This document shows positions 10,133 through 50,444 of a stretch of 54,958 bases of DNA, in pieces. The position numbers and the translations under genes are program-made. The DNA is taken from positions 1 to 54,958 of the forward strand of contig CANPXK010000009.1 of the NCBI GenBank assembly GCA_947585965.1, read 5' to 3'. Position 1 is the stretch's first letter. The number at the start of each line of letters is the position of its first letter. The notes below the pieces were generated by a model. It did not search any database, had not been told where the DNA came from, and worked only from the letters and a program-made list of their open reading frames with translations. The DNA comes from an uncultured Clostridia bacterium. Its GTDB lineage: Bacteria; Bacillota; Clostridia; Oscillospirales; Acutalibacteraceae.

Positions 10133-10222
10133 GGTGGTGAAAGCAATTGCACCCGACAGAAGAGTAAAACAGAACGGCTGTAAATTTGCAGCGTATTTTT
10201 CCTTTTAGGAGTTGCAGTAATA

Positions 10223-12253: not shown

Positions 12254-12399
12254 TGCCTGCTTTTGTTTATCCTCCCTAAAGACTGATAAACAGTAGAATT
12301 TTGTGATATTAATATGCTGTGTGAAATGGTCGGGTACGGCTATTGAAAATGCATTAATAATACTAAATAAAAAAATTTTATGAAAGTGAGGAAATGAAA

Positions 12400-20247: not shown

Positions 20248-23200
20248 ATGGGTAGGAATTTAAAATTATTTACGGTATTTACAACACTTCTTATCTGCCT
20301 TTTTACGACAACTATGTCTGTAAATGCGGCGGAAAATATTGTCTTGAGTGCAGATACCGAAAGGGTTGAGAGAGGAGGCAGTGTTGTCATTTCGCTTGAC
20401 CTTGGGGAAGATGCCGATCTTTATGCATATGCGGCAAAGCTGAGTTATGATAAGAATGTATTTGAGCCTATTGAAAAGAGCAGCTTTCAGGCTCAGGATA
20501 ATTGGTCCGATATTGTTTATAACAGTGAAAACAATAAGTTCGGACTTATCAATAAATCAGGTCAGAGCGGTTCCGATGTCCTTGAGATAAGGCTAAGGGT
20601 AAGGGACGATGCAAAGGCGGGGACAACCTCGGTAGTTGTGGATAATGTCAGTATTTCGGATGGAGATAAGGCATCATCGCTATCGGGTGATTCAGTTCAG
20701 ATTTATGTTAAAGAAAATGCATTGGATGATAAAGAAGCAACTGATGCGGATGTTGAAATAACCGATGGGGGTATTTCGGTTTCATCGGGTTCGGGCAACA
20801 CATGGATAGGTATACTCCTTGTTGCAGCGGCTGCCTTAATTATTTTGGTTGCGGTCGTGTTCTTTATCAGGTCAAAGAATACAAAAAACAGAGTGATAGC
20901 AGCTTCAATCAGTGCCGTTGCTGCGGCAGGACTGATAATTGCGTCAATTGTGGTGTTTACATCAAAACAGCCTGACGTAAACACTGACGGAAAGGTGGAT
21001 TATGATGATGCAAAGGAGGTTCTTGAATATCTTCTCGGTATAGATAACGATAAGGACAGCGATGAGTCCGACACTCAGACTTCCGGTGATGACGATACCC
21101 AAAGTACGGAAAGCTCATCCGACTCCGACAGCAGTACGGATAATTCGGGTGATACTGACAATCCGGGTGATACAGAAAATCCGAGTGATACGGACAATCC
21201 GGGCAATTCCGAAAATACAGAGACTCAAAGCAGCCCGGGTACGGAAGGTACGAATACAAATAATCCCGATTTGGACGTAAATAACGACGGCAATGTCGAT
21301 ATAAATGATGTCGGAATTATTATTGACGATGCCGGCAATGATACCGATTATGAGGCGGATCTCGGAAAGGTAGAGTTTTCTGCTCAGAGCGGACAGACTT
21401 CCGAACTTATTGACGGTATTTATTACACGACAAAGGGAGAAAAGAATATACTTTTCGGATTTGAGGCGACAATAAATCCTCACACTCTCATTAAAAAGGT
21501 TGTGATTAACGGCAAGAGCTATCCGGTAACGGCGACAAAGATAAGTGATAAAAAATATTACTATACGGCAAAAGTGCCGACCCCGGAAGCGGCAGGCAAA
21601 AAGACGGATTTGTCTGTTTCACGGGTAATACTGGATAACGGTAAAAAGCTTGACGTAAGCGGCAAAATTTCCGTTGAGATTTTAAAGGATAAACCTGCTC
21701 TCAAAAATTATACATTAAATGATGGAAAGAACGGATATAATATTTCGTTCGATATAGACGACCCCGACAACTCACTTGTAAGCGGAACTATTATTGTCAG
21801 AGGACAAAACGGTGAGAGCGTTGAGGTTACACCGGACGGAATGAAGTCGGGCAGGAATGTTTATACCCTTAAGGGACTTAAGGCAGGGGTAAAATATACC
21901 GTTGTGGCAAGTGCAAAATATGATCTTGACAGTGAGAGAGATAACGGGGCTCATGAAGATATTGAAATGATCCTGACAAAGGAGATCGAGGCTGTCGATT
22001 ATGCACTTGACGTAAGAAATGCAAGCGTTTCCGTTGACAGGAATAACCGAAAGCTGGTTATAGAATTTGAAAGCACGACAGCGGTCGAAGGACGGCATAT
22101 TGAAAAGGTCGTAGTCAACGGAAAGACATACCAGGCAAAGCGTGTTGGTTCTGCGAATAAATATAAGGTTGAAATACCGTATAAGAGCGAAAGCGCTGCG
22201 GAATATAAAATCACAGATGTTATACTCGACAATGAAGTGCAGATTGAAATGGATCGGTCGATTGGACTGAAGGTATTCAAGACGGCTCCTACTGTGAAGA
22301 ACACCAAGCTCATACATAACAAAACCGGCAATACGATTGATTTCAGTTGGAGCCTTGATGATAAGGACGGTACTGTTTCGTCCGTTTACGCTGTACTCAA
22401 GAGGAACGGCAGGACAATTGAAACAAAGAAAGTTTCAAAGAACGTGACGAGTGTAAGTTTTGACGTATCCGGGGATAAGTGTGCAGGTGTGTATAAGGCA
22501 GAGGTAGCAGCAGACTTTGAGCTCGTCGATGGCAAGTCACACAAAAAGGAGGTTCTCAACTCTGCCGATCTCGAAATTGCAATCAAGGCAGCAATAAAGG
22601 ACTTAAGCACATCAGAGCCGTACCCGACAAAGGGACAAACTGTCAGTCTTGAGATGCGTATTGATTCCAATACTGCCGATGATGCAACGGGTGTTGTTAT
22701 AAACGGCAAAGAGTATCCCGTCAGCAAAAATAAGGACGGAAAATATTCACTGAAATACACGGTACAGAAAAATGCCGGAGCGGAAACAATTAAGGTCGAG
22801 AAGGTGATTTTCTCCGATGCTTCGGCAAATGCAAGTGCGAGTGTGTCGGTGGACGTACTTAAGGATAAGCCGACAATCAAAGATTTTGTATTTGATGACA
22901 GCGAGGATAAACATATCGTGTCGTTCACACTTAATGATAAGGACAGTGCGTTTATAAAGGGAGAAATAGTTGTTGTCAGCGAGAACGGAGATAAGGTTCA
23001 GACTATAGCCCTTGATACAGGAAAAAAAGATTACAAGTATCAGCTGAAGCTCAGCGAGAACGGAGTATACCATATAAGTGTGAGTATAACCTATGATCTC
23101 GACAGCAACAGACGGAATGAAGATAATCAATTTACCATCGCTGCGGCAGAGAAAGACGTTGAGGTACTTGTAGATTACAAGTTTACGTTCAGCAATGCAA

Positions 23201-26200
23201 AAATCGACTCCGTAAACTATGATGACAAGAGCGTTACAATCAGCTTCAACAGCACTAATGTCTCAAAGTATTACGGTGTTTCAAAGGTAGTTGTAAACAA
23301 CAAGGAATATAGTGTAAGCAGGGACGGGGATAACTATACCGTCAGAGTTCCTCTTGAAAACAGAGATAAGACTGTGCTGACGATAACGCAGATTGTGCTT
23401 GAGGATCGGAAAAGATTTGACATAGATTCCGCTGAAACGGGATTTGTTGTATTCAAAAACCATCCTGCCGCTGAGGTTGAGCTTGATACGGAAAAGACCT
23501 CGGTAGAGGTAAGATATAATATCCTTGATGATGACAAGACAGTAAAAGAGTTCAGCATCGAGTTAAAGGATTCCGTAGGAAATGCTGTGGCAAGTAAAAC
23601 TTCGGAGGAGCTTGGTTCAAAGACATCGGGAAGCGTTAAGTTTGATGATCTGACGGCAGGCGAATATACTGCTGATGTTATTGCAGACTTTGATGTCGTT
23701 GACGGACTTTCCCATAAAAATGAAGTAATAGGAACAAAGACAGCTTCTATTGATATTACGGCGGAAATAACAAAATGTGATGTTGACAGGAAGTATGTAA
23801 ATAAAAATGAGGAGGTAGGCATCTCCTACACGATAGAAACAAATACAAATGAGAAACTGACTGCCGTTACGATTAACGGCAAGGATTATCCTGTTGTTAA
23901 TCAGGAGGGTAATGTTTACACAATATCCTATACCGCGGGAGATAAAGCAGGAAAACAGGATATTAATGTGACCTCATTGAAATTTGCCGACACATCGGTT
24001 GCAGCGGAGCATAGCGACAGCATAGAGGTACTCAAAACGGCTCCGACCGTATCCGAGATAGACTATGACGGTGCCGATAAGCCATGTGTATCATTCACAC
24101 TTACAGATGACGACGATGCCTTTATCAGCGGAATCTTAGTTGTGACGGGTGAAAACGGCTATAAGAACGAGATATCTATCGACAAAGAAAAGAGCAGCTA
24201 TGACCTCGGAATTGAAGATAACGGATTGTATAACATAAGTGTTAAGCTTACATATGACCTTGACAGCGACAAGCAGGATGAGGATAACCGTGAAGTAAAA
24301 GAGCTTGCCGCCAAGGAAATTGAGGTTATAGTAAAATACGACTTTACCTTTACCGATTCCGCCGTAAAATCCGTTGATTATGATGCCAAGACGGTTACAA
24401 TAGGCTTCAACAGCACAAATGCGTCCATTTATAAGGTATCAAAGCTCACTGTGAACGGGACGGATTATGACGTTACGGCAGACGGAGATACCTATACGGT
24501 TACAATACAGCTTGACAGTACAGACAGAGCGGAGCTGAATATAACTCAGGCAGAACTTGAAGATCATAAGAAGTTTACCGTAAACGAAAGCTTTACGGTA
24601 TTCAAGAAAGCCCCGACTGCGGTTGTAAATCCGATAACAGGCGAGGATAAGATTGATGTAAGCTATATAATTGTTGATCAGGAGAGTATAGCCGAGAATT
24701 TCAAGTTAGTGTTAAAGACTGCCGACGGTACTGTGGCTGATACCAAGGCTGTCAGTGATTACGAAGGAACAGTTACATTCCCGGCAAGGGCGGGGGCATA
24801 TATTGTCGAGATAACTGCAAGCTATGATGCTGTTGACGGAAGGATCCATAAGAATGAAGTGATTGGAGCGGACGATGTTATCATGCCCATTGATATAGAC
24901 AGTATATCGGGCAAGGCAGTAAAGGACTATGTCAACAAGGGTGAAACGGCAGATATAATTTATACCGTTGAGGACAATACCTATGAGGATATAGAATCGT
25001 TTACAATAAACGGCAGGGATTATCCCGCAGAAAAACAGAGCGATGATACATACAAAGTCAGCTTCAGGGTCGGCAATGATGCGGGAATGGAAACTCTTAA
25101 TGTAACTGCTGTGCAGTATTCCACCGAGTCTGTGCCGGTACAGTGCAGCAGCACGGTTGAGGTACTCAAAGGAGTTCCCGCCTTGACCGGTTTTGACTAC
25201 GACGGAAATGAAAAAACAGTAGTATCCTTTATTCTGAACGACTCCGACAATGCCTTTATCGCCGGAAAAATCATTGTGACCGATTCTCAGGGCGGAAAGA
25301 CGGAGGTTGAGATAGAAAAGGGTAAGGAAGCATATGATCTCGGACTTAAGGAGAACGGAACATACGGTATAAGCATTAATGTTACATACGACCTTGACAG
25401 CAACAGGGATGACAAGGCGAACCGAAAGACCGAGGAACTGTACAGCGGTGAAATTCAGGTTATTACAGATTATAAATTTACCTTTAAAAATGCAGCCGTT
25501 AAGTCGGTAGACTATAAGAACAGGACGGTCGTGTTAAGCTTTGACAGCACGAATGCATCGGATTATCCGGTAACAAAGGTTACCGTAAACGGAAACGAGT
25601 ATGACACCGAGAAAAACGGTGATGCTTACACAGTCAGGATAACCCTTGACAGCTGCGACAGGACAGTGCTCGGCATTACGTCCGCAGAACTTGAAAATCA
25701 CAAGAAATTCAGTGTCAGTGCAGATCTCGTGGTATTTAAAACCGCTCCGACAGCGATCCTGAACATAGTACCCGGTGAGGATAAGATTGATGTCGGCTAT
25801 GCTGTTATAGATAACGAGGGAATTGCCGATGATGTAAAGCTTGTTCTCTGTGACGTATATGGAGCTGCTATTGAGACAAAGAATATCAAGTCAGGATCTT
25901 TTGAAGGTTCCTCCGAATTTTCCATAGAAAAGGCAGGAACGTATACAGTCAAGATTCTTGCTTCATATGATGTAGTTGACGGCAGACAGCATATTGACGA
26001 GGAACTTACTTCGGATGAGATCGTATTTAATATTGATATTGACAACATTACGTGTAAGGTTTCAAAGGATTATGCCGACAAGAATGAAAGAGTCGACATA
26101 TTCTGCACAGTTGATGATAATACATATGAGTACGTAAAGTCTTTCACAATCGGAGGAAAGGATTATCCTGCCGAAAAGCTGGGTGACAATGAGTACAAGA

Positions 26201-29200
26201 TCAGCTACACCGCGGGTAATAAGGCGGGAATTGAAAACATAGACATAACCGCCGTAAATTATGAAAATGAGAGTGTCAACGTATCATGTACCGGAACGAT
26301 AGAAGTGCTAAAGGATGTTCCCACAATAGACGGCTTTACTTACGATGGAAGCAATGAGCCGAGAATATCATTCAAGCTCAATGACCCCGACGACACATTC
26401 ATAAGCGGTACAATAGTTGTCAGAGGTGCGGACGGTTATGAAAAAGAAATTCCTGTTATAAGGCTTGTTGAGGATTATGACCTTGATATATCCAAAAACG
26501 GATTATACAATATAAGCATCAACATTACCTATGACCGTGACAGCAACAAGGAGGATGACGATAATCAGGCAAGTACCGAGCTTACGAGCGGCGAGATACA
26601 GGTATTGGTCGACTATGGATTCAAATTCACCAACGCAAAAATAAAATCCGTTGATAACGAGAAAAAGACGGTTACAATTACATTTGACAGCACAAATGCT
26701 TCAATCTATAAGATATCGGATGTAATTATAAACGGCAAAGATTACAAGCCGACTGTCAAGGGTGATACATACACCGTCACAGTAACATTGGATAAACGCA
26801 GCAGAACAGAGCTTAAAATGACACAGGCTGAGCTTGAGGATAAAAAGACCTTCAAACTCAGTAAGAGCTTCGTTGTATTTAAGAAGGTTCCGACAGCAGA
26901 ATTAAAAACAGTCATTGAGGATGATGTTATACATACAAGCTATACAGTGACCGATGAAGAGAAGATTGCTGAGGACATAAGGCTTGTACTGCGTGACGTG
27001 AACGGAGATATTATCAACACCGTGCCATGTCAGGAGCTGAAGGGCAGTGTTGACTTCAGTATCGAGTATGCGGGTGCGTATACGGTTGAAATCATTGCAA
27101 GCTATGATGCAGTTGACGGACTCACCCATAAGGATGAGGTATTGAAGTCGGGCAGCACCGAATTTTCAATAAATGTAGACAGCGTAACCGGAGAAATTGC
27201 AAAGAAGTATTTCGAGAAAAACGAAAAAGCAGAAATATTCTACACAGTAGATGACAATACATATGAGGATGTTTCAACGTTTACCTTAAACGGAAGGAAA
27301 TATAAGGCGGAAAAGCAGAGTGACGGAAGGTATAAGGTTATTTATACTACGGGTGACAAGGCAGGAGAAGAAAAGATCGAGCTTACCGCAGTCGGTTATT
27401 CAAACGAGGAGGTAAACTTTAAGTACAGCAATTCCATAGAGGTGCTGAAGGATGCTCCGGGCATAACCGATTTCGATTATGACGGTTCGGAAAAGTCAGA
27501 GATATCTTTCAGACTCAGTGACCCGGATAATTCGTTCATAAGCGGTGGGATAACTGTTACTGATTCAAACGGAGTTGTCAGTGAGATACCTGTGGAGAAG
27601 GACAGGGAAACTTACGACCTCGGTATTAAGAAGAACGGAATGTATACTGTAGGCATAACTGTCCTTTATGATAGGGATAAGGACACAAGCAATACCGAGA
27701 ATCAGTCCGAGAAAGAGTTGTACAGCAATACAATTCAGGTATTTACCGATTATGAGTTTACGTATTCCAACCCCGTGCTTAAATCCGTGGATAACAGGAC
27801 AAAGACCGTAATATTAGGTTTTGAGAGTACAAACGCATCCGTATATAATGTTGCAAAGGTTACGATTAACGGCAAGGATTATGATGCCGTAAGAACAGGC
27901 AATACGTATACTGTAAGTGTTACTCTTGACAAGGCTGAAAAGACCGTGCTCAATATTACGGGCGTAGAGCTTGAAAACCATAAAAAGTTTGAGGCTGACG
28001 GAAGCTTTACGGTATTTATGAATAAACCGAAGGTGAAGCTTAGCGCGGCAAAGGACGGCAGCAACGTGAATGTCGGATACTCGGTAACCGATGAGGATAA
28101 TACTCTTACGGGTGCAAATGTGGTTCTCAGGGATTTGAACGGAACAATAATTGACAGCGTTCCGTACAGCGGATTGAGCGGTACCGCATCATTCACGGTT
28201 GAAAATGCAGGCAGCTATACTGTAGAGTTCGCCGCAAGCTATGATGCGGCAGACGGTCTGACCCATATTGACGAAGTGATTGCATCCGAGAACATTGAGT
28301 TTGCGATAAATGTCAAGAGTGTCAGCTCGACCGCTGCAAATAAATATGTCGGCAAGAATGAGAAAACGGAGATAATCTACACAGTAGAGGACAACACATA
28401 TGAGGATGTATCTGCTTTTGTTATCAACGGCAGCGAGTATGCCGCAGAGAAGCAGAGCAACGGTTCATATAAGGTAATATATACCGCAGACAGTAAGGCA
28501 GGAAACGTGAAACTCAACCTGACCGCAGTCAGATATGCCGGCGGTAATGTCAAGGCTGAAAATACGGTTGAAATAGAGGTATTGAAGGATGCACCGACAA
28601 TAACCGATTTTGACTATGACGGCAGTGAGGAACCGAAGATTTCCTTTAAGCTTAATGATGCCGACAATGCGTTTATCAGCGGAAGAATTACCGTTACGGA
28701 TCTTAACGGCAGAAAGGCTGCCGAAACAGCCGTAGAAAAAGGCAAGGACAGCTATGCCCTCGGAGTAGAGGAAAACGGAATTTATGCGGTAAGTATAAAT
28801 GTCCTGTATGACCTTGACAGCAATGAGAAAGACAGTGCAAATCAATATGAGAGGGAGCTTCTGAGTCAGTCCGTTCAGGTATTTGTTGACTATGATTTCA
28901 AGATAACGGAACCGAAATTGTACTCCGCAGATACAACCGGCAATACGGTAACCCTTTCGTTTGAAAGCACGAATGCATCAATATATAAAGTATCTAAGGT
29001 TACCGTAAACAACAAAGAGTATGAGGTTACGGGAATCGGCGGCAATACCTATACTGTAGAAATAAAGCTTAATATCCTCGGCAGAACATTCTTTGAATTT
29101 TCGCAGGCGGAGCTTGAGGATCATAAGAAATTCAGCGTAGAGGAGAGCATAGTCGTATTCAGGACTCAGCCGACTGCTAACCTTAGTGTTGATGTTAAGG

Positions 29201-32200: not shown

Positions 32201-35200
32201 AGGTTATAGATTATACGGTAGATCCCGACAATTACAAGGTATCGTTCAATCTTGTTGATGATGATAATGCCCTCATCAGCGGCGAGGCGGTAATTACTGA
32301 CGGCAATACGGACAGGAGCGTATGCAGTATCACTGAAAAGGGAAATCAGAGTTTTGAAATCCCCGAGGATTTGAACAGCGATGCGGAATATCGCATTGTT
32401 ATAAAGCTCACCTATGACCTTGACAGTGATAAAAAGGCGGACAGCGACAACTATCACGCTGACGATGAGATACGCTCGGAGGTTCTGGAGCTTAAGGCTG
32501 ATAAGGATATCGGAATAAGGGAAATAAAGACGGTCAGCGTTGATAAGGATGAAAGGACGGTTGATATATCCTTTACCGCCGATGACGACAGCAGACATCA
32601 CATTACAAGAATATTCATTGAGGATCAGGAATTCTATACGGAATATAACGAGGAAACCGGTATATATACCGTCAATGATATTCCGTATACAGGTGAGGAA
32701 AACGAAAGGCAGGAGATAAGACTAAGCAAATTCTATACAGAAACGGGCATTGAATATGATCTGAGTGAAAAGGACATATCGTTCGTGATTTTCAAAAATA
32801 ATCCGACTGTCGAGAATATGGAGATTGCGGTAAGCGGCAAGGAGGTATATCTGAGCTTCGACATTGTTGACGAAGATAAAACCATTTCAAGTCTTTCCGC
32901 ATCTCTTACAAAGAGCACGTTTAACGAGGTTTACGGCAACACTACCATAGATACTCTCGATACGGAAGAGTTGGAGATAGGAAGCGGCGGTAAATATTCC
33001 GTAAAACTTCAGCTTACGGATATAAGCACTGCCTATAACTTCAACGTAAACATTCTGGCCGATTATGATGTTGTTGACGGCGAGGAACACAATGGGGTAA
33101 CAATCGGTACAAAGGTAGGAACCGTTAAAGTGGTTGCTAATATTATCAGCGACTCCATTACATCTGACGAGGATCTCGGCGGCGACGAGGTGGGCGAAAC
33201 TATCGAAAAGAACCGTAAGATAAGAGTAGCCTTTGAGATTTCCGACAATACGGAGTGGGATGCAACCAGAATGGTAATAGACGGAACGGTGTACAACGTA
33301 AGCAAAGACAGACCCACCGATAACGGAGATATCTACTTTGCCGATGTCATAACACCCAAGACCGCAGGTAAAAGACCGTTTACCGTATCGAGAATATACT
33401 ACGGAGATAACGAGTCGGAAGTTGATTATAAAACAAGAGAGGTAACAATTCTTAAGGCAAAACCCGGGGTTGAGAATTATACGGACGGCGGCACAGCGGA
33501 TAAACCGTATCTTAAATTCACTTTCTCCGATCCGGACGGAGCATTGACAAGCGATGCGGTCTTTACAATGCGGGATGAAGAAACGCAGAAGGTTTATTAC
33601 ACCAAAACGCTGACACCGGGTGAGGAAGTCAACCTTGATCTCAGTGATCAGGAGAAATTCCCGGAGGGTATCTATCAGATCATCATAAAAGCATCATATA
33701 ATATCTATGACGATAAGGAAAAAGAGGTTAAAGATGCGAGCCTGTTGAACGACAATGTTCTCGGACTTGAAAAGAGACTCCAGATAAAGAAGGGATATAA
33801 TTTCAGCGCCACACTAACTCCGGTTGAAATATTTGATGATTATATGCCGTTTGCGTTTTTCGTAAATATGGAAAGCCTTACAGCTGACAAGACGATAACC
33901 GGCTTTAACCTTGTCAAGCTTACTGAGTTGCCTGATGGTACATACAAAAGAGAGGAATTTGAATGTTCCGAGGTGTACCCGTGGGAGGATGACTACAGTG
34001 CATTCATATCCGGCTGGAAATACGAAAGGGGTATGACCCATGTTTACTATGAATCCGCAACACTTAATGACGGTGAGAAGCTTATTCTCGACTGGTTCAG
34101 TGATTACACTATAGTAAGCACGTATCCGACAGTTACAAAGACTACTCTGAAAGAGGACACTATCAACGATTGTGTGTATGCAACCGCAGCCGTTTCAGAC
34201 CCCGACAGTACAATTAACCGTCTGAGGTTCAGACTCAAAGCGGCGAATAACAGAGTGCTTGATGAAAAATTCCTCAATAAGAGTCAGGTTAAGGAGCTTA
34301 CAGAGGTTGTCTTTGACAAGAAAATGCCAATGACGAGTCAGTACAAGCTTGAAGTCATAGCCGAATTTGATCCCGAGGGCAGAGGAAACTATTATACATC
34401 TACACTTGCAACAAACTCGGTAAAATCGGCGGAACGTGTTGTAATAAGGGATCATCTCATCGCCGATCCGTACCCGGAAAAAGGCGGAGATGTTGTTATA
34501 GGTTACCGGATGGCACATAACCTTGCGGCGGGTATAGAGATAGTCGGAATGAAGATAAACGGCGAGCAGATAGACCTGAGTTCACAGGACGGAGACTGGT
34601 ATAAGTTTGTAATGCCTGCTCCGACAAACAGCGGCGTTTACGATTATACCGCGACGGCAATAATACTCAGCAGCACTACCTATAATCTTGCAAAGAAGGA
34701 TCCTGATGAAAACGGCGAGGGCGGCTATAACCTCCAGCCGACCGACAGCATAGACGTTCTTAAGGACAGACCTTATGCTGCCGATATAAAGCTTGAGGAC
34801 GATCCGGCGACTAATACCGCAACTTTCAGCTTCAGGGTTGAAGATCCGGACAATGCTCTGTTGGACGGAGACGCGGGAGTTGCTGTGATAAACGGCAATT
34901 CACAGACTATTACCCCCGAAGATAACCGTCTGACATTTACGAATATTCCCAAGGATCAGGAACTCAGCTTTAATATCATAGGTAATTATGATCTTGATAC
35001 AAACACGCTTGAAAACGGAGCAGCGAACAGTAATTCGTATAATGATAGTATTCTCGACGGCGGTAAGCCTGTTCCGGTAATGTTGCTTGACGACTACGGT
35101 CTGACTGTAACAAATGTTAAAGCGGTTGATTCAGACGGCAAGGAGAAATACAACTTTGAAAAGGGTGTTTCAATAGATATGACGTTTGAGAGCACCAATA

Positions 35201-38200
35201 AGACACCCGCAGATATTGACAATGTAGTTGTAAACGGCAGCACATATGACGTAACCCGCAACGAGGACGGAACGTATAAGACGAAAATCAAGGGACTTAC
35301 CGATGCCGGAAAAACAGAACTCAAAATTGACAGTGTGATTCTTGAAAACGGCAAAACCCTCGATGCAGCGGATATCGGAGATCCTGCAAGCATAGAGATA
35401 CTCAAGGATAAGGTATCTGTTCAGAAGTTCAGTTCGACCGGAAACGGGGATTCGATGACGTTGTCAGTAAACATTAAGGATGAGGATCATTCTTTGATTG
35501 GTGATACGCTCGATGTAACGATAACCGACTCATCGACAAATCGGTTGGTAACAACAACCGAGATTAAGCCGAACAAGGTTAATGAGATAAGGTTCAATAC
35601 GACTGACAGCAGGAAATATGATGTCAGCATAAAGGCGGACTATACAAGAGATATAGGACACACAGACGTTAAGAATGATGAGGAGATATATCAGAAGAAG
35701 GTTTCAATGGACAGCAGGGCAATTGAAATGAAGGATGTTCTTGATGTCAATTTGTTCAAGGTTGAGAACGGCAAGAATACTCAGATGAACATTGTGGATT
35801 CTGACGATATACAAAAGAACCTCAAAGATTATGTGGTACGTGTCGATATGGAAAATCTTCCGTCATTCTACTCTGACATAGAGAGTGTTGAGGTAAGGGA
35901 TGATAAGCTCATTCTCAGGGTAAGCTACGAAGGTGCGGTAGATTATTCAAATAATAAGACGAATACCGAATATATCGAAATTGAGTATCAGTACATTAAA
36001 AATTCAGACGGAAAATACACATATGACGGTTCGTTTGAGTCCCTGATACGCAGGATGCGTGAAGATCCGACGGGTGAGTTTGTACTGACGAAGAATTATG
36101 ATGCATCAACATATGTAACTGATGATGCGACATACTTCGGTACGGATAAGTTCAAGGGAACTCTTGACGGCAACGGTTACACGATAAGCAACCTTTCCAA
36201 GCCTCTGTTCACTACGCTTGAAAATGCGACTGTAAAGGATCTGTATATCACGGATGTTGTACTTACTTCTCTTCAGGGTGCAAAGGCACCGCTTGCAAAC
36301 AACGCTTCCGGTACGAATGTATCAGGAGTTCATGTCAACAACGTGAAGATTACTGCGTATAGCAACACCACCACGGGATACGGCTCAAGTGCAGGTCTTA
36401 TGGGTGAAGTTTCAAACAACACAAAAATAAGCGAATGCAGTGTGACGAACCTTACACTCGGCAATATCTACCTGACCCAGCTCTCCGGCGGTATTGTACG
36501 TGAGCTTAAGGGATCGAGCATATCCAACTGCTATGTTGAGGGTATCTCAACAACAGGATGGTGGGGCAACGGCGGTATCGTCGGTACGGCGGATCAGTAT
36601 TCAACGATTGAAAATTGTATTTCAAATCAGTCGCTGTCAATGTATATCAATGATAAGAACGCAGGTATCGTCGGATCATCAAACGGAGCAACGCTGAAAA
36701 ATAATATAGCAATAGCTACCGGAAATAATGCTCAGGCTATGAAGGTTTACGGTAATACGCTTGGCAGTGCTTCGGAAAATAACTATCAGCTTTCTGATGT
36801 TCCGGGAAATAATAACGAGCATCAGGCTGTCAAGAGTATATCGAGCAGTCAGCTCAGCGAGAGCTTTTATGGAAATCAGCTGAAGCTTGACCCGAAAATA
36901 TGGGATTTCAGCAATGCATCGCAGACAAAGATTCCGACCCTCAGAAATAATGCCAACTATGCCCCGTATGTTCCGAGTCGGGATCGTGTAATGGAGAATA
37001 AGGATTACGACCCGAGCAAGGAGATTGCTTATAACAATCTGTATAAGCTTATGCCGTTCTATGATGCATCCTATATCATTACGGACGCTGCAAATAACAT
37101 AAGGGTAGGCGATGATCTCAACACTAAGAGAGTAAACGGAGTTATCCCGTACGATTCCGACGGAAATATTGTTTATGTTCTGGATACCGGGAATTATGAC
37201 AAGCTGTCAAAGATAACCATAGTTTACGATGACCTTACAATGCAGACCTATGATGTCAGCTACGACATCTGCTTCGGTAATGTTGCCTGCTATGATATAC
37301 CGGCACTGAAGCTTAAATACACATATAACCACTATGTGATTAATTCGGAATCGCCGGTTATAGATGAGCTTGTTGATGAGCTTCTTGCAGCAGGAACCTA
37401 CAGTAAAGCACTTGATACGATTACCCCCAACAAAGATCACGATACCTATAAGTACTATTACGATGAGGAAATCGGAACAAGAGAAAATCTCAGGGATTTT
37501 GTCATTAAGGTGCTTGCAAACGGCAACTATGCGGTTACGACAAGTGACTCTGTTGTCAACACTGCGATCCGTTCGGAGCTGACAAACAACAAAAAACTGC
37601 TCAATATGCTTTATGCTTATAACTACTATATGCGCTGGTACAGCTTCGACATAGAGCAGTTCAGCATTGCCGATATGTTGATGTTCAAGGGAGACATATT
37701 CAGCAGTAACCTTAACCTTGAAAATCTTACAACGGCATTGCTGTCAAATCCCGGAAGTACGATGAGGACAAACGCAACTAATGAATTCTACAATAGTTAC
37801 GTTAGTGCCTACACGGGAATAAAAACACTTCCCGACTTCCTCAACTTCTTTATCAAGGCAACAGGAAAATACACGGATGAAACCATTAACGACTGGTTTA
37901 CGGATAACTTTAACGGTGTATTGCGTGAAATGAAGATGGATAAGATAGAGGATGTTGATATTGAGTATGACAAGATTAAGTACAGAGCATGGGCGCACAT
38001 GAGTGTACGACCGCATGTTATGCTGCCGCTGCTCAATATGCCTGATAATTCAACCTACATTCTGTCATACCCGACCGCAATGGCAATCGGTTCTGTCAGA
38101 ACATACATAAGGGATCCCTCTGATGAAGAACAGATGAAGAACTTCAATACAAGCATTGACAATTGGGCAATGAAAATGAAGGTTTACTACAATATGTATC

Positions 38201-40797
38201 TGGGTATTCTCAGTAAAACCGATGTGGTAACTCTGTTCAACTCCAAGGACGATTACGTTTATGACAGCACAAGAGTTTATGAAACGCCGGATGCCAAAAA
38301 CAGGGTATTTGCGAGCAACACCACACAGGAGCCTCACTTAAAATGGTTTTCGATTCCGCTCGGTGTGAACTATTACCATCCCGATAACTATGCCGTAGCT
38401 AACGGTCATGATGTATTATATGCACAGGGCGACTACTTCGGAAATATGCTCCTCTACAGCCATGAAGCGGCTCACAATCAGGACGGTCCTGTTTACTTCA
38501 AGGGAGCGGGAAGAAGATTGGGAGCAGGTGCTGAGGATTTCACTACAAGTTTCTTCACTCAGAGTATGCCGGACGGAAGTCCGCAGATTAACGGCACATA
38601 CTTCTATGATGAAAACTCAAGCTTTACCGCCAACCTCACCCCCGATAGAATTAATTCCTATCAGAAGATAAACGACTTCTATAAGAAGATGTTCCAGACC
38701 TCTTACTTCCTTGATTACCTTATGGGTGAGGCATTCCTGGAGCTTACACCCGACCAACAGGCGAAAGTTGCAACAAAGGTCATGGGTGTCAGCGGTTCAC
38801 AATCGCCAAAGAGTGTAAGCAAGGCCGATATTGAATCAATGGATCTTCATACAGTCGAGGATCTTGTAAAAAATAAGCTTATTCTTTCAAACACATTTAC
38901 TCAGTCTGTCTATAGTATTCGTTGGTATGACGTTCATTCAACAAGCGGAATAGAGTCAGGTACGGTATTCCACTATCTTGCATATGCAATGCTCGGATAT
39001 GCGGGTTATGATGACGGCTTTATCAGGTACTGCGGTAATTTCTATAATGGAGATTTGGAAACACTTATAGAAATATCAAAGCTTGCCGGTGATAACTATA
39101 AAACGTTCGAGGAATTCAAGAATGGCGAATTCAAGAAGCTGATGGAACACAGAGACGAGATATCTTACATCGACCCCGAACAGGTAGTTGAGGAATTCCG
39201 TCAGGCACTTGTTCTTGATTCACAGGATGCAGTTACTGCACGTCAGGTCAAGAATGCAACCGAACTGAAGAAGAAGTATTATCTCCTCATCAAGAAAAAT
39301 ACTGATGATTTCAGAGGAGAGATTTTCCAGAGCAAGGATAAGGCTGATATACACGTTTCAACAGCAAAGGATTTTGTTGAAAAGATTACGAAAAACAAGT
39401 ATGCAAACATAATAGTTGATGATGATCTTGATTTCTCTGCTTACACATCAGGCACGAGTGTTGTCGGAATAACCTTCTTAGGCTCCGTGGACGGCGGCGG
39501 TCATAAGTTGAAGAATCTCTCAAGGTCTTTGTTCAGAAGTCTCGGAACAGGAGTTGAAATTAAGAATCTTACTATTGCGGATGCCGATATTGCCCTCAGC
39601 TATGAGGGTGCGGGAGCACTTTCGAGGACGGTCGATAATGTGACCGTCTCGGGTGTGACTCTGGAGAATGTCAAGGTAGATTCCGGCAACAAGAATAATG
39701 CGGGCGGATTGTTCGGTTATGCAGCTAATTCAACGTTCAATAACGTAGGTGCGAAAAATGTTACGGTTAGCGGCGGCAAGTATGTCGGCGGTATAATCGG
39801 AAATCTTGTAAACAGTACCGTCAAAGGCGGCAAGATTGATGAAGTTTACGTAACAGGCACTTCGGATATTGTCGGCGGAGTTATAGGCGAGGCTGACAAT
39901 ACGAGTATAACAGATATAGCTGTTTCTCAGGTTACCGTAACAGGCAAGAGCTATTCCGGCGGACTTATCGGCAACGCTGTAGATTCAGAAACAGACAATG
40001 CGTCAGCACTTGACGTGACGATTGAAAACGCAAGGAACAATGTCGGCGGTCTTGTCGGTAACCTGACCTCGGCAGGAAGTATACTTGAGGACGGTTCAAC
40101 GAGCCATTCAACCATAACGAACAGTTATGCACGAAATATTAAGATAACAGGCGTAACAAAGCTTGGCGGTCTTGTCGGCAATGCCGATAAAGGAAGCGTA
40201 ATAACAATGAGCAGCAGTGCATATGCAGATGTAAGCGGTTCTGCTGATTCGGTCGGAGGCTTTATCGGCGAACTCAGTGAAGTTGAAATAGACGACTGCT
40301 ACAGTATATATGCAACTCTCAGCGGCAAAAGCTATATAGGCGGTTTTGCAGGCTACACTGTAAGCCCGACGATAACAAATTGTTACGCACACGGAAATGT
40401 TACAGGTACATCGGCATACGCGGGATTTATCGGAACGGCAAGGACGAAGGCAAAGCTTGAAAATAATGTGACGTTCGTCACGGTTACCGAAGGTTATTAC
40501 AAGTTTGACCCGACCACAGGTCTTGATTTAATCAACGGCGGATACAAGAATAACTATGAAATAACAGAATATCCCGGTCGTCCTGCAAAGGATAGGGGAA
40601 ATCTGAGTGAGAATACCATTACCTCCATAAGTATTGACGATATCAATAATGAATTCTTCAACGAAACCCTCGGTTGGAGCAAGGAAAAATGGGATCTTAC
40701 AAAGGTACTGTCCGGCGGACTCCCGAAGCTTGTCGGCAGCGGCAACGCTATGAATGATACGGATAGTTTTACGCTTAAACAGCCGGCAGCAGACTGA
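20248..40797 (+). CDS. Giant modular surface protein with M26 zinc peptidase
   Basis: 6849 residues, unbroken over 20.5 kb. Order: signal peptide (1-27); cohesin-like beta domain (about 29-165); transmembrane segment W186-I207; basic loop RSKNTKNR (208-215); second segment 216-237; dockerin-like loop from D243; Ser/Asp/Asn linker; second dockerin-like loop from D343; modules C-D, then about 12 copies of an A-B-C-D beta-module set (about residues 370-5170); GLUG-type repeats (about 5300-5570); peptidase (about 5600-6370); a second GLUG block (about 6405-6790). The zinc site is H6072-E-x-x-H6076 with E6096, 24 residues on, and the GxGRRxGxGxE pattern of family M26 (streptococcal IgA1 protease, ZmpB). 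No LPxTG motif is present. A membrane-anchored peptidase on a very long stalk, acting on host or neighbour glycoproteins, is inferred. AGGGG lies about ten bases before the ATG. Confidence 0.88.
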   Translation: MGRNLKLFTVFTTLLICLFTTTMSVNAAENIVLSADTERVERGGSVVISLDLGEDADLYAYAAKLSYDKNVFEPIEKSSFQAQDNWSDIVYNSENNKFGLINKSGQSGSDVLEIRLRVRDDAKAGTTSVVVDNVSISDGDKASSLSGDSVQIYVKENALDDKEATDADVEITDGGISVSSGSGNTWIGILLVAAAALIILVAVVFFIRSKNTKNRVIAASISAVAAAGLIIASIVVFTSKQPDVNTDGKVDYDDAKEVLEYLLGIDNDKDSDESDTQTSGDDDTQSTESSSDSDSSTDNSGDTDNPGDTENPSDTDNPGNSENTETQSSPGTEGTNTNNPDLDVNNDGNVDINDVGIIIDDAGNDTDYEADLGKVEFSAQSGQTSELIDGIYYTTKGEKNILFGFEATINPHTLIKKVVINGKSYPVTATKISDKKYYYTAKVPTPEAAGKKTDLSVSRVILDNGKKLDVSGKISVEILKDKPALKNYTLNDGKNGYNISFDIDDPDNSLVSGTIIVRGQNGESVEVTPDGMKSGRNVYTLKGLKAGVKYTVVASAKYDLDSERDNGAHEDIEMILTKEIEAVDYALDVRNASVSVDRNNRKLVIEFESTTAVEGRHIEKVVVNGKTYQAKRVGSANKYKVEIPYKSESAAEYKITDVILDNEVQIEMDRSIGLKVFKTAPTVKNTKLIHNKTGNTIDFSWSLDDKDGTVSSVYAVLKRNGRTIETKKVSKNVTSVSFDVSGDKCAGVYKAEVAADFELVDGKSHKKEVLNSADLEIAIKAAIKDLSTSEPYPTKGQTVSLEMRIDSNTADDATGVVINGKEYPVSKNKDGKYSLKYTVQKNAGAETIKVEKVIFSDASANASASVSVDVLKDKPTIKDFVFDDSEDKHIVSFTLNDKDSAFIKGEIVVVSENGDKVQTIALDTGKKDYKYQLKLSENGVYHISVSITYDLDSNRRNEDNQFTIAAAEKDVEVLVDYKFTFSNAKIDSVNYDDKSVTISFNSTNVSKYYGVSKVVVNNKEYSVSRDGDNYTVRVPLENRDKTVLTITQIVLEDRKRFDIDSAETGFVVFKNHPAAEVELDTEKTSVEVRYNILDDDKTVKEFSIELKDSVGNAVASKTSEELGSKTSGSVKFDDLTAGEYTADVIADFDVVDGLSHKNEVIGTKTASIDITAEITKCDVDRKYVNKNEEVGISYTIETNTNEKLTAVTINGKDYPVVNQEGNVYTISYTAGDKAGKQDINVTSLKFADTSVAAEHSDSIEVLKTAPTVSEIDYDGADKPCVSFTLTDDDDAFISGILVVTGENGYKNEISIDKEKSSYDLGIEDNGLYNISVKLTYDLDSDKQDEDNREVKELAAKEIEVIVKYDFTFTDSAVKSVDYDAKTVTIGFNSTNASIYKVSKLTVNGTDYDVTADGDTYTVTIQLDSTDRAELNITQAELEDHKKFTVNESFTVFKKAPTAVVNPITGEDKIDVSYIIVDQESIAENFKLVLKTADGTVADTKAVSDYEGTVTFPARAGAYIVEITASYDAVDGRIHKNEVIGADDVIMPIDIDSISGKAVKDYVNKGETADIIYTVEDNTYEDIESFTINGRDYPAEKQSDDTYKVSFRVGNDAGMETLNVTAVQYSTESVPVQCSSTVEVLKGVPALTGFDYDGNEKTVVSFILNDSDNAFIAGKIIVTDSQGGKTEVEIEKGKEAYDLGLKENGTYGISINVTYDLDSNRDDKANRKTEELYSGEIQVITDYKFTFKNAAVKSVDYKNRTVVLSFDSTNASDYPVTKVTVNGNEYDTEKNGDAYTVRITLDSCDRTVLGITSAELENHKKFSVSADLVVFKTAPTAILNIVPGEDKIDVGYAVIDNEGIADDVKLVLCDVYGAAIETKNIKSGSFEGSSEFSIEKAGTYTVKILASYDVVDGRQHIDEELTSDEIVFNIDIDNITCKVSKDYADKNERVDIFCTVDDNTYEYVKSFTIGGKDYPAEKLGDNEYKISYTAGNKAGIENIDITAVNYENESVNVSCTGTIEVLKDVPTIDGFTYDGSNEPRISFKLNDPDDTFISGTIVVRGADGYEKEIPVIRLVEDYDLDISKNGLYNISINITYDRDSNKEDDDNQASTELTSGEIQVLVDYGFKFTNAKIKSVDNEKKTVTITFDSTNASIYKISDVIINGKDYKPTVKGDTYTVTVTLDKRSRTELKMTQAELEDKKTFKLSKSFVVFKKVPTAELKTVIEDDVIHTSYTVTDEEKIAEDIRLVLRDVNGDIINTVPCQELKGSVDFSIEYAGAYTVEIIASYDAVDGLTHKDEVLKSGSTEFSINVDSVTGEIAKKYFEKNEKAEIFYTVDDNTYEDVSTFTLNGRKYKAEKQSDGRYKVIYTTGDKAGEEKIELTAVGYSNEEVNFKYSNSIEVLKDAPGITDFDYDGSEKSEISFRLSDPDNSFISGGITVTDSNGVVSEIPVEKDRETYDLGIKKNGMYTVGITVLYDRDKDTSNTENQSEKELYSNTIQVFTDYEFTYSNPVLKSVDNRTKTVILGFESTNASVYNVAKVTINGKDYDAVRTGNTYTVSVTLDKAEKTVLNITGVELENHKKFEADGSFTVFMNKPKVKLSAAKDGSNVNVGYSVTDEDNTLTGANVVLRDLNGTIIDSVPYSGLSGTASFTVENAGSYTVEFAASYDAADGLTHIDEVIASENIEFAINVKSVSSTAANKYVGKNEKTEIIYTVEDNTYEDVSAFVINGSEYAAEKQSNGSYKVIYTADSKAGNVKLNLTAVRYAGGNVKAENTVEIEVLKDAPTITDFDYDGSEEPKISFKLNDADNAFISGRITVTDLNGRKAAETAVEKGKDSYALGVEENGIYAVSINVLYDLDSNEKDSANQYERELLSQSVQVFVDYDFKITEPKLYSADTTGNTVTLSFESTNASIYKVSKVTVNNKEYEVTGIGGNTYTVEIKLNILGRTFFEFSQAELEDHKKFSVEESIVVFRTQPTANLSVDVKDSVVTADYELTDSDNTIGSADIVFKNSSGDILDTQPCSGNSGTVRFTAETSGTYTVELVADCDLADGNGSLSRVLSSQSIKQPVKATVKESRTDGEFAQKGAGVGIFYKVTDNTDEMVTSFTINGVDYPAIQQENGEYRISYVVGSKAGDEDISVSAVNYPSGNASVKYKSSIEVLRDKPTADVIFDNSGEQPKLTVKFTDNDSAAITAVASVMLGGEIVSETPLKAGENDIDITSLDNNRAYIVNVAVDYDLDKNKDDGKNRDKLNQSTQLLIIKDYNFKLDNFALETIDKEDKEVTLSFESSNISQVHFVDKVVINGETYGVSRISQVRETEFGTVYKYNVIVPYDNEERQEFVLTQAILDNMKTFGGLSQKVVIFKNAPTVNNSKLVLDSQEIFNLTFDVKDADNTLSALYATLKDYKGDTVETVKIDVGAGTKYSCKFSRFSVHAGIYTVDVTADYNLTDGSSGCKDKVLSTASYEVMILINSADAAAGKDYAEKNEQVDITFTITDNAPYNVKNFEIISTVDGKDTTALYDVATVSENGSEGVYKVNVTMPDKAGVVKYTLSKINYIDNDIDAEYTAEVNNCVTSVEVLRSAPENTNYTLDEKKKTITFEVADSDKAVTTVTALATDKAADSVTELRVEKDSGNTYTINLSLLAETAYDIKIMVNYDRDSDTKNNKNNGVLTIDREIDFSVNYQASISSVRVTKVDTTEKLVTISLGAEVTANGEKTSAVNVRYVTVKGNTYEVTRDSESGQYTVRIPYDGDNEQTLTIESITLTNGLKFDCRKDNSVTIFKTAPKASDLTVEVNSGTISAKFKLTDTAGTLSGFKAVLKDSSGNVLSSKQFNKIPQGGIVSVSFDDYKANSAGKYTVTVLATYNRLDGVTHSDEELISSDADVDITSTITKHTGVSKYAAKGEDINITYTISDNTDVPVTALVINGEKYDAVQAETDGQYTVTVKAPESAGKTSFKADKAVYNGREIALSKVYTVDTEVLKTVPQVIDYTVDPDNYKVSFNLVDDDNALISGEAVITDGNTDRSVCSITEKGNQSFEIPEDLNSDAEYRIVIKLTYDLDSDKKADSDNYHADDEIRSEVLELKADKDIGIREIKTVSVDKDERTVDISFTADDDSRHHITRIFIEDQEFYTEYNEETGIYTVNDIPYTGEENERQEIRLSKFYTETGIEYDLSEKDISFVIFKNNPTVENMEIAVSGKEVYLSFDIVDEDKTISSLSASLTKSTFNEVYGNTTIDTLDTEELEIGSGGKYSVKLQLTDISTAYNFNVNILADYDVVDGEEHNGVTIGTKVGTVKVVANIISDSITSDEDLGGDEVGETIEKNRKIRVAFEISDNTEWDATRMVIDGTVYNVSKDRPTDNGDIYFADVITPKTAGKRPFTVSRIYYGDNESEVDYKTREVTILKAKPGVENYTDGGTADKPYLKFTFSDPDGALTSDAVFTMRDEETQKVYYTKTLTPGEEVNLDLSDQEKFPEGIYQIIIKASYNIYDDKEKEVKDASLLNDNVLGLEKRLQIKKGYNFSATLTPVEIFDDYMPFAFFVNMESLTADKTITGFNLVKLTELPDGTYKREEFECSEVYPWEDDYSAFISGWKYERGMTHVYYESATLNDGEKLILDWFSDYTIVSTYPTVTKTTLKEDTINDCVYATAAVSDPDSTINRLRFRLKAANNRVLDEKFLNKSQVKELTEVVFDKKMPMTSQYKLEVIAEFDPEGRGNYYTSTLATNSVKSAERVVIRDHLIADPYPEKGGDVVIGYRMAHNLAAGIEIVGMKINGEQIDLSSQDGDWYKFVMPAPTNSGVYDYTATAIILSSTTYNLAKKDPDENGEGGYNLQPTDSIDVLKDRPYAADIKLEDDPATNTATFSFRVEDPDNALLDGDAGVAVINGNSQTITPEDNRLTFTNIPKDQELSFNIIGNYDLDTNTLENGAANSNSYNDSILDGGKPVPVMLLDDYGLTVTNVKAVDSDGKEKYNFEKGVSIDMTFESTNKTPADIDNVVVNGSTYDVTRNEDGTYKTKIKGLTDAGKTELKIDSVILENGKTLDAADIGDPASIEILKDKVSVQKFSSTGNGDSMTLSVNIKDEDHSLIGDTLDVTITDSSTNRLVTTTEIKPNKVNEIRFNTTDSRKYDVSIKADYTRDIGHTDVKNDEEIYQKKVSMDSRAIEMKDVLDVNLFKVENGKNTQMNIVDSDDIQKNLKDYVVRVDMENLPSFYSDIESVEVRDDKLILRVSYEGAVDYSNNKTNTEYIEIEYQYIKNSDGKYTYDGSFESLIRRMREDPTGEFVLTKNYDASTYVTDDATYFGTDKFKGTLDGNGYTISNLSKPLFTTLENATVKDLYITDVVLTSLQGAKAPLANNASGTNVSGVHVNNVKITAYSNTTTGYGSSAGLMGEVSNNTKISECSVTNLTLGNIYLTQLSGGIVRELKGSSISNCYVEGISTTGWWGNGGIVGTADQYSTIENCISNQSLSMYINDKNAGIVGSSNGATLKNNIAIATGNNAQAMKVYGNTLGSASENNYQLSDVPGNNNEHQAVKSISSSQLSESFYGNQLKLDPKIWDFSNASQTKIPTLRNNANYAPYVPSRDRVMENKDYDPSKEIAYNNLYKLMPFYDASYIITDAANNIRVGDDLNTKRVNGVIPYDSDGNIVYVLDTGNYDKLSKITIVYDDLTMQTYDVSYDICFGNVACYDIPALKLKYTYNHYVINSESPVIDELVDELLAAGTYSKALDTITPNKDHDTYKYYYDEEIGTRENLRDFVIKVLANGNYAVTTSDSVVNTAIRSELTNNKKLLNMLYAYNYYMRWYSFDIEQFSIADMLMFKGDIFSSNLNLENLTTALLSNPGSTMRTNATNEFYNSYVSAYTGIKTLPDFLNFFIKATGKYTDETINDWFTDNFNGVLREMKMDKIEDVDIEYDKIKYRAWAHMSVRPHVMLPLLNMPDNSTYILSYPTAMAIGSVRTYIRDPSDEEQMKNFNTSIDNWAMKMKVYYNMYLGILSKTDVVTLFNSKDDYVYDSTRVYETPDAKNRVFASNTTQEPHLKWFSIPLGVNYYHPDNYAVANGHDVLYAQGDYFGNMLLYSHEAAHNQDGPVYFKGAGRRLGAGAEDFTTSFFTQSMPDGSPQINGTYFYDENSSFTANLTPDRINSYQKINDFYKKMFQTSYFLDYLMGEAFLELTPDQQAKVATKVMGVSGSQSPKSVSKADIESMDLHTVEDLVKNKLILSNTFTQSVYSIRWYDVHSTSGIESGTVFHYLAYAMLGYAGYDDGFIRYCGNFYNGDLETLIEISKLAGDNYKTFEEFKNGEFKKLMEHRDEISYIDPEQVVEEFRQALVLDSQDAVTARQVKNATELKKKYYLLIKKNTDDFRGEIFQSKDKADIHVSTAKDFVEKITKNKYANIIVDDDLDFSAYTSGTSVVGITFLGSVDGGGHKLKNLSRSLFRSLGTGVEIKNLTIADADIALSYEGAGALSRTVDNVTVSGVTLENVKVDSGNKNNAGGLFGYAANSTFNNVGAKNVTVSGGKYVGGIIGNLVNSTVKGGKIDEVYVTGTSDIVGGVIGEADNTSITDIAVSQVTVTGKSYSGGLIGNAVDSETDNASALDVTIENARNNVGGLVGNLTSAGSILEDGSTSHSTITNSYARNIKITGVTKLGGLVGNADKGSVITMSSSAYADVSGSADSVGGFIGELSEVEIDDCYSIYATLSGKSYIGGFAGYTVSPTITNCYAHGNVTGTSAYAGFIGTARTKAKLENNVTFVTVTEGYYKFDPTTGLDLINGGYKNNYEITEYPGRPAKDRGNLSENTITSISIDDINNEFFNETLGWSKEKWDLTKVLSGGLPKLVGSGNAMNDTDSFTLKQPAAD
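21361..35750 (+). repeat. Tandem four-module (A-B-C-D) protein repeat, about 12 copies
   Basis: Module A landmarks start at about 21997, 23176, 24340, 25470, 26610, 27750, 28888, 30025, 31285, 32500, 33788 and 35089. The spacings are 1179, 1164, 1130, 1140, 1140, 1138, 1137, 1260, 1215, 1288 and 1301 nt. A ends in a VFKxAPT motif. B carries ASYDxVDGxxHxDEV. C carries VDNTYEDVxSFTINGKxYPAEKQ and ends in SIEVLKDAPT. D carries LNDxDNAFISG and a YDLDSN acidic loop. A lone C-D pair precedes the first full copy, and the last copy is incomplete. The central copies are the most uniform in length. Confidence 0.9.
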
Positions 40798-41991: not shown

Positions 41992-42065
41992 ATAATTGCT
42001 ATTGACATTTTCTGCGGAGAAATACCGAGTATGCAAAAGAATATATGTGCAAAGGCGGAGATAGA

Positions 42066-49367: not shown

Positions 49368-50444
49368 ATGGATATAAATGAAAATTTTTTGCTTTGGCAA
49401 TTTGATGAATTGAAAAAGATTAATGACAAAACCGAGCTTGTAATCAATAAAAGCACTAAACGGCTTATGATCAAGAAAATAATGCATGAAAGCGAGTATA
49501 AAATTCATAAAGAGCTTTGTTCAGTCAGCCACAGAAATTTATTGAAAATATATGATGTTATATCGGACAGCGGAATATGCACGGTTCTTGAAGAATACAT
49601 AAACGGTTCAACGCTGAGTCAGTACTGTGAAAGATATCAGCTCAGCAATATGCAGATTGTTGATATAATACTTCAGCTTTGCAGAGGACTCAGTGTATTG
49701 CATGAGAAGAATATAATACACAGGGATATAACTCCTACAAATGTAATGATAGATAATTACGGGACGGTAAAAATAATTGATTTCGATATTTCGAGAATAA
49801 CAAACGATACTTCAAGGCATGACACGCATATCCTGGGAACGGAGGGTTTTGCCGCCCCCGAGCAGTACGGTTTCAGACAGTCGGGACCACAGACTGACAT
49901 TTATGCTGTAGGCGCTCTGATAAACTATATGAAAAAGGGCAAAACACTTGATGAGGAACAATTGGATGATGAAAGCTGTCTGACGGACATAATGAAAAAA
50001 TGTATAGAATTTGACCCCGAAAAAAGATATGAAAATATAGGTCTTCTTATAGACGACCTTGAAAAATATAAAGCTTATCCGGATAAAAGAATAAAATCGG
50101 CAAAAGGGAAAAAGGATTTGCTGATAAGCAGGCTAATTCTTGGTCTGCCCGGAATAAAATCGAAAAAAATATCCCGGAAAGTATTTGCGGTAACCTGTTA
50201 TATATTATTCATTATTTATGTATATTCAATATTCAGTGAACCGGAAAATACTTCTCAGTTCTATCAGGGAATAGTAATACAGGTATTTGAAATTATAATA
50301 CCTTTTTTCTGTTTCTCAAATTACCTTTCGTTTCAGGAAAAAATCTTTAGAAACTACAGTATTTCTTCCAAAAGAACCGCTTTCAAGCTTTTAGGTGCAA
50401 TAAGTATCGTTGTCGGTTCATTCTTATCTTCAATGATAAAATAA
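49368..50444 (+). CDS. Membrane-anchored Ser/Thr protein kinase, atypical
   Basis: 358 residues. The kinase domain is at about 8-255: catalytic loop H118-R-D120-ITPTN125, metal-binding motif D138-F-D140 (DFD, not DFG), and APE at 163-165 in GTEGFAAPEQYG. The probable ATP lysine is in RLMIKKI (K36/K37). The usual glycine-rich loop is not recognisable at the N-terminus. Three hydrophobic segments after residue 270 (VTCYILFIIYVYSIF; IVIQVFEIIIPFFCF; LLGAISIVVGSFL) anchor it, with the kinase domain inside. HRDxTPxN is common in such Firmicutes kinases. AAAAGGAAG lies just upstream of the ATG at 49368. It is divergent from the HTH gene, with which it probably forms a regulatory pair. Confidence 0.88.
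   Translation: MDINENFLLWQFDELKKINDKTELVINKSTKRLMIKKIMHESEYKIHKELCSVSHRNLLKIYDVISDSGICTVLEEYINGSTLSQYCERYQLSNMQIVDIILQLCRGLSVLHEKNIIHRDITPTNVMIDNYGTVKIIDFDISRITNDTSRHDTHILGTEGFAAPEQYGFRQSGPQTDIYAVGALINYMKKGKTLDEEQLDDESCLTDIMKKCIEFDPEKRYENIGLLIDDLEKYKAYPDKRIKSAKGKKDLLISRLILGLPGIKSKKISRKVFAVTCYILFIIYVYSIFSEPENTSQFYQGIVIQVFEIIIPFFCFSNYLSFQEKIFRNYSISSKRTAFKLLGAISIVVGSFLSSMIK

Follow-up and report, generated by a model that had tools for sequence, protein, structure and literature searches.

Metallo-IgA1 proteases, as described in the accessible part of PMC9637739, share three features, namely an N-terminal LPXTG motif, a G5 domain and an M26 region; those that carry LPXTG are cleaved 56 residues beyond it, entry of IgA1 is controlled by the beta-helix domain NTD2 in two solved enzymes, and the distant M26 members ZmpB-ZmpD, about 30% identical, leave IgA1 uncleaved. 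The available portion of PMC7695701 gives the catalytic residues as H1604, E1605, H1608 and E1628, with H1604, H1608 and E1628 as zinc ligands, and the review PMC13271334, in its accessible part, assigns M26 activity to streptococci and not to Clostridia. Here we describe an M26 gene encoding 6849 residues at 20248..40797 on the forward strand of contig CANPXK010000009.1 (assembly GCA_947585965.1), from an uncultured member of the Clostridia, probably a gut bacterium, of the family Acutalibacteraceae; the window is the whole stretch analyzed, 54,958 nucleotides, and all parts of the gene are on its forward strand. Given its domain composition, catalytic motif, repeat amplification and conservation, all of which are read from sequence, we hold with moderate confidence that this giant protein is a zinc endopeptidase of family M26 displayed at the cell surface, with a hairpin anchor at its base, a long rod and a cohesin that probably grips a dockerin.

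The giant shares with the streptococcal and Gemella metallo-IgA1 protease (ZmpA) the M26_N and M26_C regions, an HExxH motif with Glu at +24, a catalytic unit in the C-terminal part, and an N-terminal hydrophobic hairpin, the last as in a streptococcal-like M26 protein from genome G1465 (G numbers designate genomes). Unlike ZmpA-type enzymes it has neither LPXTG nor G5, is about three times longer, and includes a cohesin, a split dockerin and, at its C-terminal end, another GLUG region. Its count of FN3-like domains was at least 47, compared with one in G1465. Similarity to ZmpC is partial (NCBIfam, 109 bits over residues 5362-6279, far under the cut-off of 3000), and the N-terminal half of the giant is different. 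A cohesin of a surface enzyme also occurs in NagJ and the mucinolysome proteins of PMC12997984, among which dockerin peptidases are known and in whose accessible main text the term M26 is absent; in the giant, however, a membrane hairpin stands between the cohesin and the dockerin loops of a single M26 chain. Giant adhesins (6xi3, 4p99 ice-binding adhesin; SiiE 2yn3/2yn5) similarly have long tandem beta-sandwich rods, whereas the M26 giant has a peptidase near its far end and a hairpin membrane anchor at its base. Proteins of more than 5000 residues have already been surveyed, as the available part of PMC11573180 indicates, and length by itself is no novelty; it is the combination of parts that appears new. 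A literature search returned no paper joining cohesin, dockerin, peptidase and M26, nor "M26 peptidase" with metagenome, which is weak evidence given that subscription journals were mostly outside its reach.

Results

Judged by homology and motif, the C-terminal quarter of the giant is an M26 peptidase. Peptidase_M26_N (residues 5122-5364, 35611..36339) scored 96.6 bits in Pfam against a cut-off of 27.7, and 102.2 bits in a second scan, and this segment may overlap the beta-helix gating domain NTD2 of the IgA1 protease; Peptidase_M26_C, the catalytic region (residues 5678-6304, 37279..39159), scored 116.5 bits against a cut-off of 22. A phmmer search of the PDB gave four matches at E<=1, all of them IgA1 proteases, the best at E 6e-37 and a 2201-residue chain at 3.4e-34. 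The zinc-binding motif HEAAH (residues 6072-6076, 38461..38475) aligned to the HExxH of 6xjb, and E6096 (38533..38535), the predicted third zinc ligand, aligned to the Glu of GRRxGxGPE in the same structure; it stands 24 residues after the first His of HEAAH, in the context GAGRRLGAGAE. An earlier reading of the same DNA letters (the original prediction) had proposed M26 membership from this spacing and a GxGRRxGxGxE context, and both the motif and the family assignment were borne out by the search of the peptidase region. HEAAH with Glu at +24 was retained in the window's protein, in G358, in G407 and in a cut frame of G216, and all five shorter relatives of the same family had it as HETAH with Glu at +24; one M26 protein, G900a, has HETGH without Glu at +24 and perhaps relies on a different ligand or lacks activity. 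Beyond the catalytic region lies a second GLUG-containing C-terminal region, probably a beta-helix (39373..40794; Glug 51.1 bits, with a weak M26_N match of 24.2 bits, below the cut-off of 27.7).

The gene, identified from its open reading frame (ORF) and its homologues, starts with ATG, has a GGGG about 10 nt upstream and contains no internal stop. The unbroken 20.5-kb frame and the unusual length for M26 in the original prediction stand, the protein being about three times as long as the IgA1 protease chain of 2201 residues among the PDB matches and the 1984-residue streptococcal-like M26 of G1465. A complete homologue of 7362 residues from its first Met was present in another metagenome-assembled genome (MAG), G358, with 65% identity across 6478 columns; besides the window's protein, the giants seen in genus g31 had frames of 6341 codons, truncated where the contig stops, and of 7368 codons. 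In the nine regions compared with G358, which omit residues 386-679, the proportion of synonymous differences (pS) was 0.68-0.75; that of nonsynonymous differences (pN) was 0.34 in the region of the hairpin and linker and 0.10-0.22 in the other eight, by our own Nei-Gojobori (NG86) counts with synonymous sites near saturation. These values show purifying selection on all nine regions. The cohesin was the best conserved of them (82.7% identity, pN 0.096), the catalytic region had 74.7% identity (pN 0.143), and the hairpin was identical at 31 of 55 positions.

Most of the length is stalk. An amplified arm (21433..33207) is made of A-B-C-D blocks of about 380 residues, each with four FN3/Ig-like domains (the AlphaFold2 (AF2) model of one block had a predicted local distance difference test score (pLDDT) of 92.4), and is followed by a segment (33208..35697) homologous to the entire 8-domain stalk of the shorter relatives, residues 4321-6688 of the giant aligning with 333-2734 of G325. 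The stalk domains counted at score >=3 and length >=45 numbered 47 in the giant, 51 in its giant relative and 8 in the shorter relatives, all of which are lower bounds, with about 50 by length in the window's protein. Nine arm blocks were positionally orthologous between the window and G358, with 61-67% identity to the counterpart and at most 53% within the protein, and G358 had one arm block more; the giant arose via amplification of a 380-residue four-domain FN3-like block. Among solved proteins the arm sequence had four weak matches at E<=1, and animal receptors with FN3 domains were frequent among arm matches, which is likeness of fold only. An FN3 domain spans about 3.5 nm, as in fibronectin, and at that length per domain the fully extended rod would measure about 165 nm.

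The base of the protein begins with a signal peptide called by hydropathy only (20248..20328; 14/27 identical in G358) and a cohesin domain (residues 36-140, 20353..20667). The cohesin scored 31.9 bits with PF00963 (cut-off 24.1) when residues 27-165 were scanned alone, and 31.1 bits when whole genomes were searched; it was absent from the matches given by longer pieces of 500, 1000 and 2666 residues. A cohesin match at E<=1 was found in six of seven aligned members, the window's included, and in the genome search the profile matched the M26 frames of the window's genome, G358, G325 and G426 and, in G407, a 919-residue frame that also bears arm domains. A profile of the seven cohesin regions had weak PDB matches to NagJ (E 0.005), which we take to be the C. 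perfringens protein, and to a cellulosome-anchoring protein (E 0.007). Two hydrophobic segments follow, TM1 (residues 189-207, 20812..20868; hydropathy 3.4) and, after the basic loop RSKNTKNR, TM2 (residues 219-237, 20902..20958; hydropathy 2.38). Next come a first dockerin-type calcium loop (residues 241-268, 20968..21051; PF00404 18.9 bits, below the cut-off of 22.9; 25/28 identical in G358), a linker of 71 residues rich in Ser, Asp and Thr by composition, which splits the dockerin (21052..21264), and a second loop recognized by motif (residues 340-370, 21265..21357; 19/28 identical in G358) that had no Pfam match alone. The linker measured 71 and 75 residues in the two giants with a readable N-terminus and was missing in the five shorter relatives. 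The latter have one clear type I dockerin: a profile of four of the five, G325 being left out, matched 1ohz at E 3.8e-8, and G080 scored 50.9 bits. Dockerin matches were present in the M26 frames of G080, G203, G325 and G426, and the dockerin of G900b scored 43.3 bits.

The original prediction contained neither the cohesin and split dockerin nor the repeat of four domains, and no shorter relatives, of which some have a sortase-type motif; these are new here. That prediction did propose a membrane anchor other than a sortase motif, with the catalytic part held far from the membrane; both fit the hydropathy and domain anatomy, with two hydrophobic segments and no LPxTG, yet some relatives keep the motif at the same place. 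The N-terminus was read in nine members of the class (the window's protein, G358, G080, G219, G203, G325, G426, G900a and G900b), leaving out G176, which has cut frames, and G216 and G407, which end at a contig end. In eight of the nine the order was cohesin-like region, hairpin, dockerin loops. Five shorter relatives of 2497-2862 residues have the same plan with an intact dockerin and eight stalk domains, and a sixth, G900b, from another family, has cohesin, LPKTG, TM1, TM2 and dockerin. The motif before TM1 was LPKTG in G900b, NPMTG in G325, NPITG in G426, only TGD in G080 and G219, and none in G203, G358 and the window's protein; the streptococcal-like protein of G1465 has LPQTG, TM1, a basic loop and TM2. 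Just before the dockerin, TM2 ends in AYA or VYA in the shorter relatives, VYG in G900b, VWA in G358 and IVV in the window's protein, and the AxA-like ends of the shorter relatives resemble, by eye, a signal-peptidase site. Loss of sortase as the cause of motif loss was rejected, the window's genome having 11 sortase-domain matches. In a tree of the catalytic region the giants were apart from the shorter forms, with long branches for G1465, G900a and G900b and a weak fork (82/81), and because of those branches and that fork the motif series can be given a direction only tentatively. Genome G900 (C8 and C10) carries two M26 proteins, G900a and G900b.

The window's genome, 97.6% complete, had two cohesin matches and one dockerin match, comprising the cohesin of the giant, a frame of 470 codons whose product has a cohesin and, at its C-terminus, a hydrophobic segment, and a frame of 493 codons whose product ends in a dockerin. 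Elsewhere the dockerin matches per genome were 26 in G358, 39 in G407, 66 in G080, one in G203 and two each in G325 and G426, and in G203, G325 and G426 one match was the M26 protein itself; G203 had no cohesin match. These searches omit G219 and G900, and the profile can miss divergent cohesins. Proteins with a C-terminal dockerin in frames of 493-603 codons were seen in G000 (C11), G008 (C20), G325 (C44) and G426 (C71), with one or two dockerin matches per genome.

The M26_C profile matched one of 64 genomes of the genus, 10 of 398 of the family, two of 394 of the order, two of 391 of the class and two of 398 of the phylum, each count including the window's genome and those above the genus being drawn samples. 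In G718 no M26 frame was found in the stretch examined, and viral contigs yielded no relative. Recent horizontal transfer was not supported. The class II tRNA synthetase of the window (assigned by Pfam) was 83-84% identical to those of three g31 genomes, compared with 72% for the M26 catalytic region. A tblastn search with 17 window proteins gave no match at E<=1e-3 in 14 stretches around the M26 genes of relatives, where the catalytic-region control matched in 14/14; in stretches from G038 and G008, two genomes of the window's genus, only the synthetase was shared with the window.

Other genes of the window include a 1546-residue DUF4011/AAA/MTES_1575 protein at 42045-46685, which scored 1460 bits with PDC-S37, a candidate defence model of PADLOC. 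After it come two ORFs that neither Pfam nor PADLOC matched, and then a gene for a protein kinase at 49368-50444 (best PADLOC rows mad6 and PD-T4-6). A cluster at 5476-15960 encoding AAA_5 ATPase, DUF5682, VWA_CoxE, SWIM and DUF4132/HEAT proteins had no PADLOC match and is perhaps a MoxR-vWA-type system. An ORF similar to Phage minor capsid protein 2 (53026-54333, 93 bits) follows two tRNA-Ser genes at the contig end and is a possible prophage edge.

Discussion

From these parts we infer the topology, cuts, clasp, reach and substrate class of the protein. The chain would be exported with its N-terminal cohesin remaining outside near the membrane, while the two-helix hairpin would hold the giant in the membrane and the remainder would face outward, as a rod with no fewer than 47 FN3-like domains, followed by the M26 catalytic unit and the second GLUG region. 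The rod could then take the active site through and past the cell wall, where the substrate would be an extracellular host or mucus protein. The cohesin would probably grip a dockerin, either the split one of its own chain, as a clasp, or that of a partner. In relatives with xPxTG before TM1 and an AxA-like end of TM2 the chain may be cleaved both before and after the hairpin, with the clasp keeping the enzyme attached to the wall; the mature clostridial protease would begin with the dockerin, and cohesin that had stayed behind on the wall would recapture it. Cutting and recapture are suggested by the motif series together with the cleavage 56 residues after LPXTG given in the part of PMC9637739 cited above. 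In the giant both cut sites look lost, so that the hairpin would be the anchor. It is only tentatively, as a possibility short of an even chance, that we propose a built-in cohesin-dockerin clasp as the surface anchor of clostridial M26 enzymes, cut at the sorting motif and after TM2 and recaptured through wall-linked cohesin, with the giants having lost the cuts and using the clasp to organize the base of their stalk, which would reach at most about 165 nm.

Several observations weigh against this interpretation. Both dockerin loops together scored 19.2 bits, below the PF00404 cut-off of 22.9, and the second is the less conserved. The cohesin profile failed on the M26 frames of G080 and G203 and gave 21.4 bits, under the cut-off, for G900b, so that in these three the cohesin is called from position and alignment. 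Transmembrane segments and cut sites were assigned by hydropathy and eye only, and G900a, compared without its C-terminal end, has one N-terminal hydrophobic segment and a dockerin but no cohesin and no hairpin. The AF2 model of the catalytic region (six rows) had a pLDDT of 43 and was used for no fold claim, and membership of the active-site fold is accordingly argued from sequence. Finally, the window's genome encodes a further cohesin protein and a further dockerin protein, so a partner elsewhere is possible, and the 26, 39 and 66 dockerin matches in G358, G407 and G080 mean that the cohesin could bind others there.

In a different reading the giant is a surface member of a mucinolysome- or cellulosome-like complex, in which its cohesin recruits glycan-degrading enzymes that the same cell makes with dockerins, and its M26 unit cleaves the backbone of mucin or other host glycoproteins. 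The dockerin matches in G358, G407 and G080 favour it. The likeness of the cohesin profile to NagJ and the cellulosome-anchoring protein is in keeping with this, as are the dockerin peptidases in Limousia mucinolysomes reported in the accessible part of PMC12997984; but the window's genome, with its single dockerin match, did not show the several dockerin enzymes and multi-cohesin scaffoldin of such systems, and the dockerin matches in G203, G325 and G426 are few and include the M26 protein itself, so that we find a complex of this kind rather doubtful. The giant frame might also be an assembly or frame artefact, the window's genome being a draft of 196 contigs, and this is very unlikely indeed given homologues in other MAGs, no exact direct repeat longer than 24 bp within the gene, and purifying selection in all nine regions. 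Were the arm mainly an adhesin and the peptidase vestigial, the retention of HExxH and Glu at +24 in the window's protein, G358, G407 and G216 would be hard to reconcile, as would a pN lower in the catalytic region (0.143) than in the arm (0.20-0.22), and we regard that option as distinctly improbable.

It is also unlikely, on present evidence, that the protein is a genuine IgA protease, made by a gut commensal adapted to its host, with an arm that would carry an IgA-hinge-cleaving M26 unit into mucus, even though all four PDB matches were IgA1 proteases and M26_N is present, with NTD2 acting as the gate in the two solved enzymes of PMC9637739 (seen in part). On sequence grounds the M26 family is supported and the label "IgA1 protease" is not, because LPXTG and G5, two of the three features given for these enzymes, are missing. 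The host IgA or mucin-type proteins suggested as substrates in the original prediction are candidates only. No LPXTG was seen when the anchor region of the window protein was read. The only G5 match of its genome in a genome-wide profile search was another frame (C60, 396 residues), and none occurred in any M26 frame of the clostridial genomes searched, compared with three in the M26 frame of the control G1465; G5 was also absent from Pfam scans of pieces spanning residues 1-6849, although the same scans missed the cohesin too. NCBIfam ZmpA scored 126.4 bits against a cut-off of 3000, and the failure of the distant ZmpB-ZmpD to cleave IgA1, as noted above from PMC9637739, also speaks against this substrate.

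Read as a surface-displayed M26 endopeptidase, the giant links the M26 immune-evasion proteases with cohesin-dockerin assembly, two fields that have been kept apart. With 8, 47 and 51 stalk domains under a like catalytic unit, the effect of reach on proteolysis is testable. The clasp, if true, would place cohesin-dockerin pairing inside one polypeptide instead of between scaffold and enzyme, and would explain how a protease that is N-terminally sorted and then cut remains on the cell.
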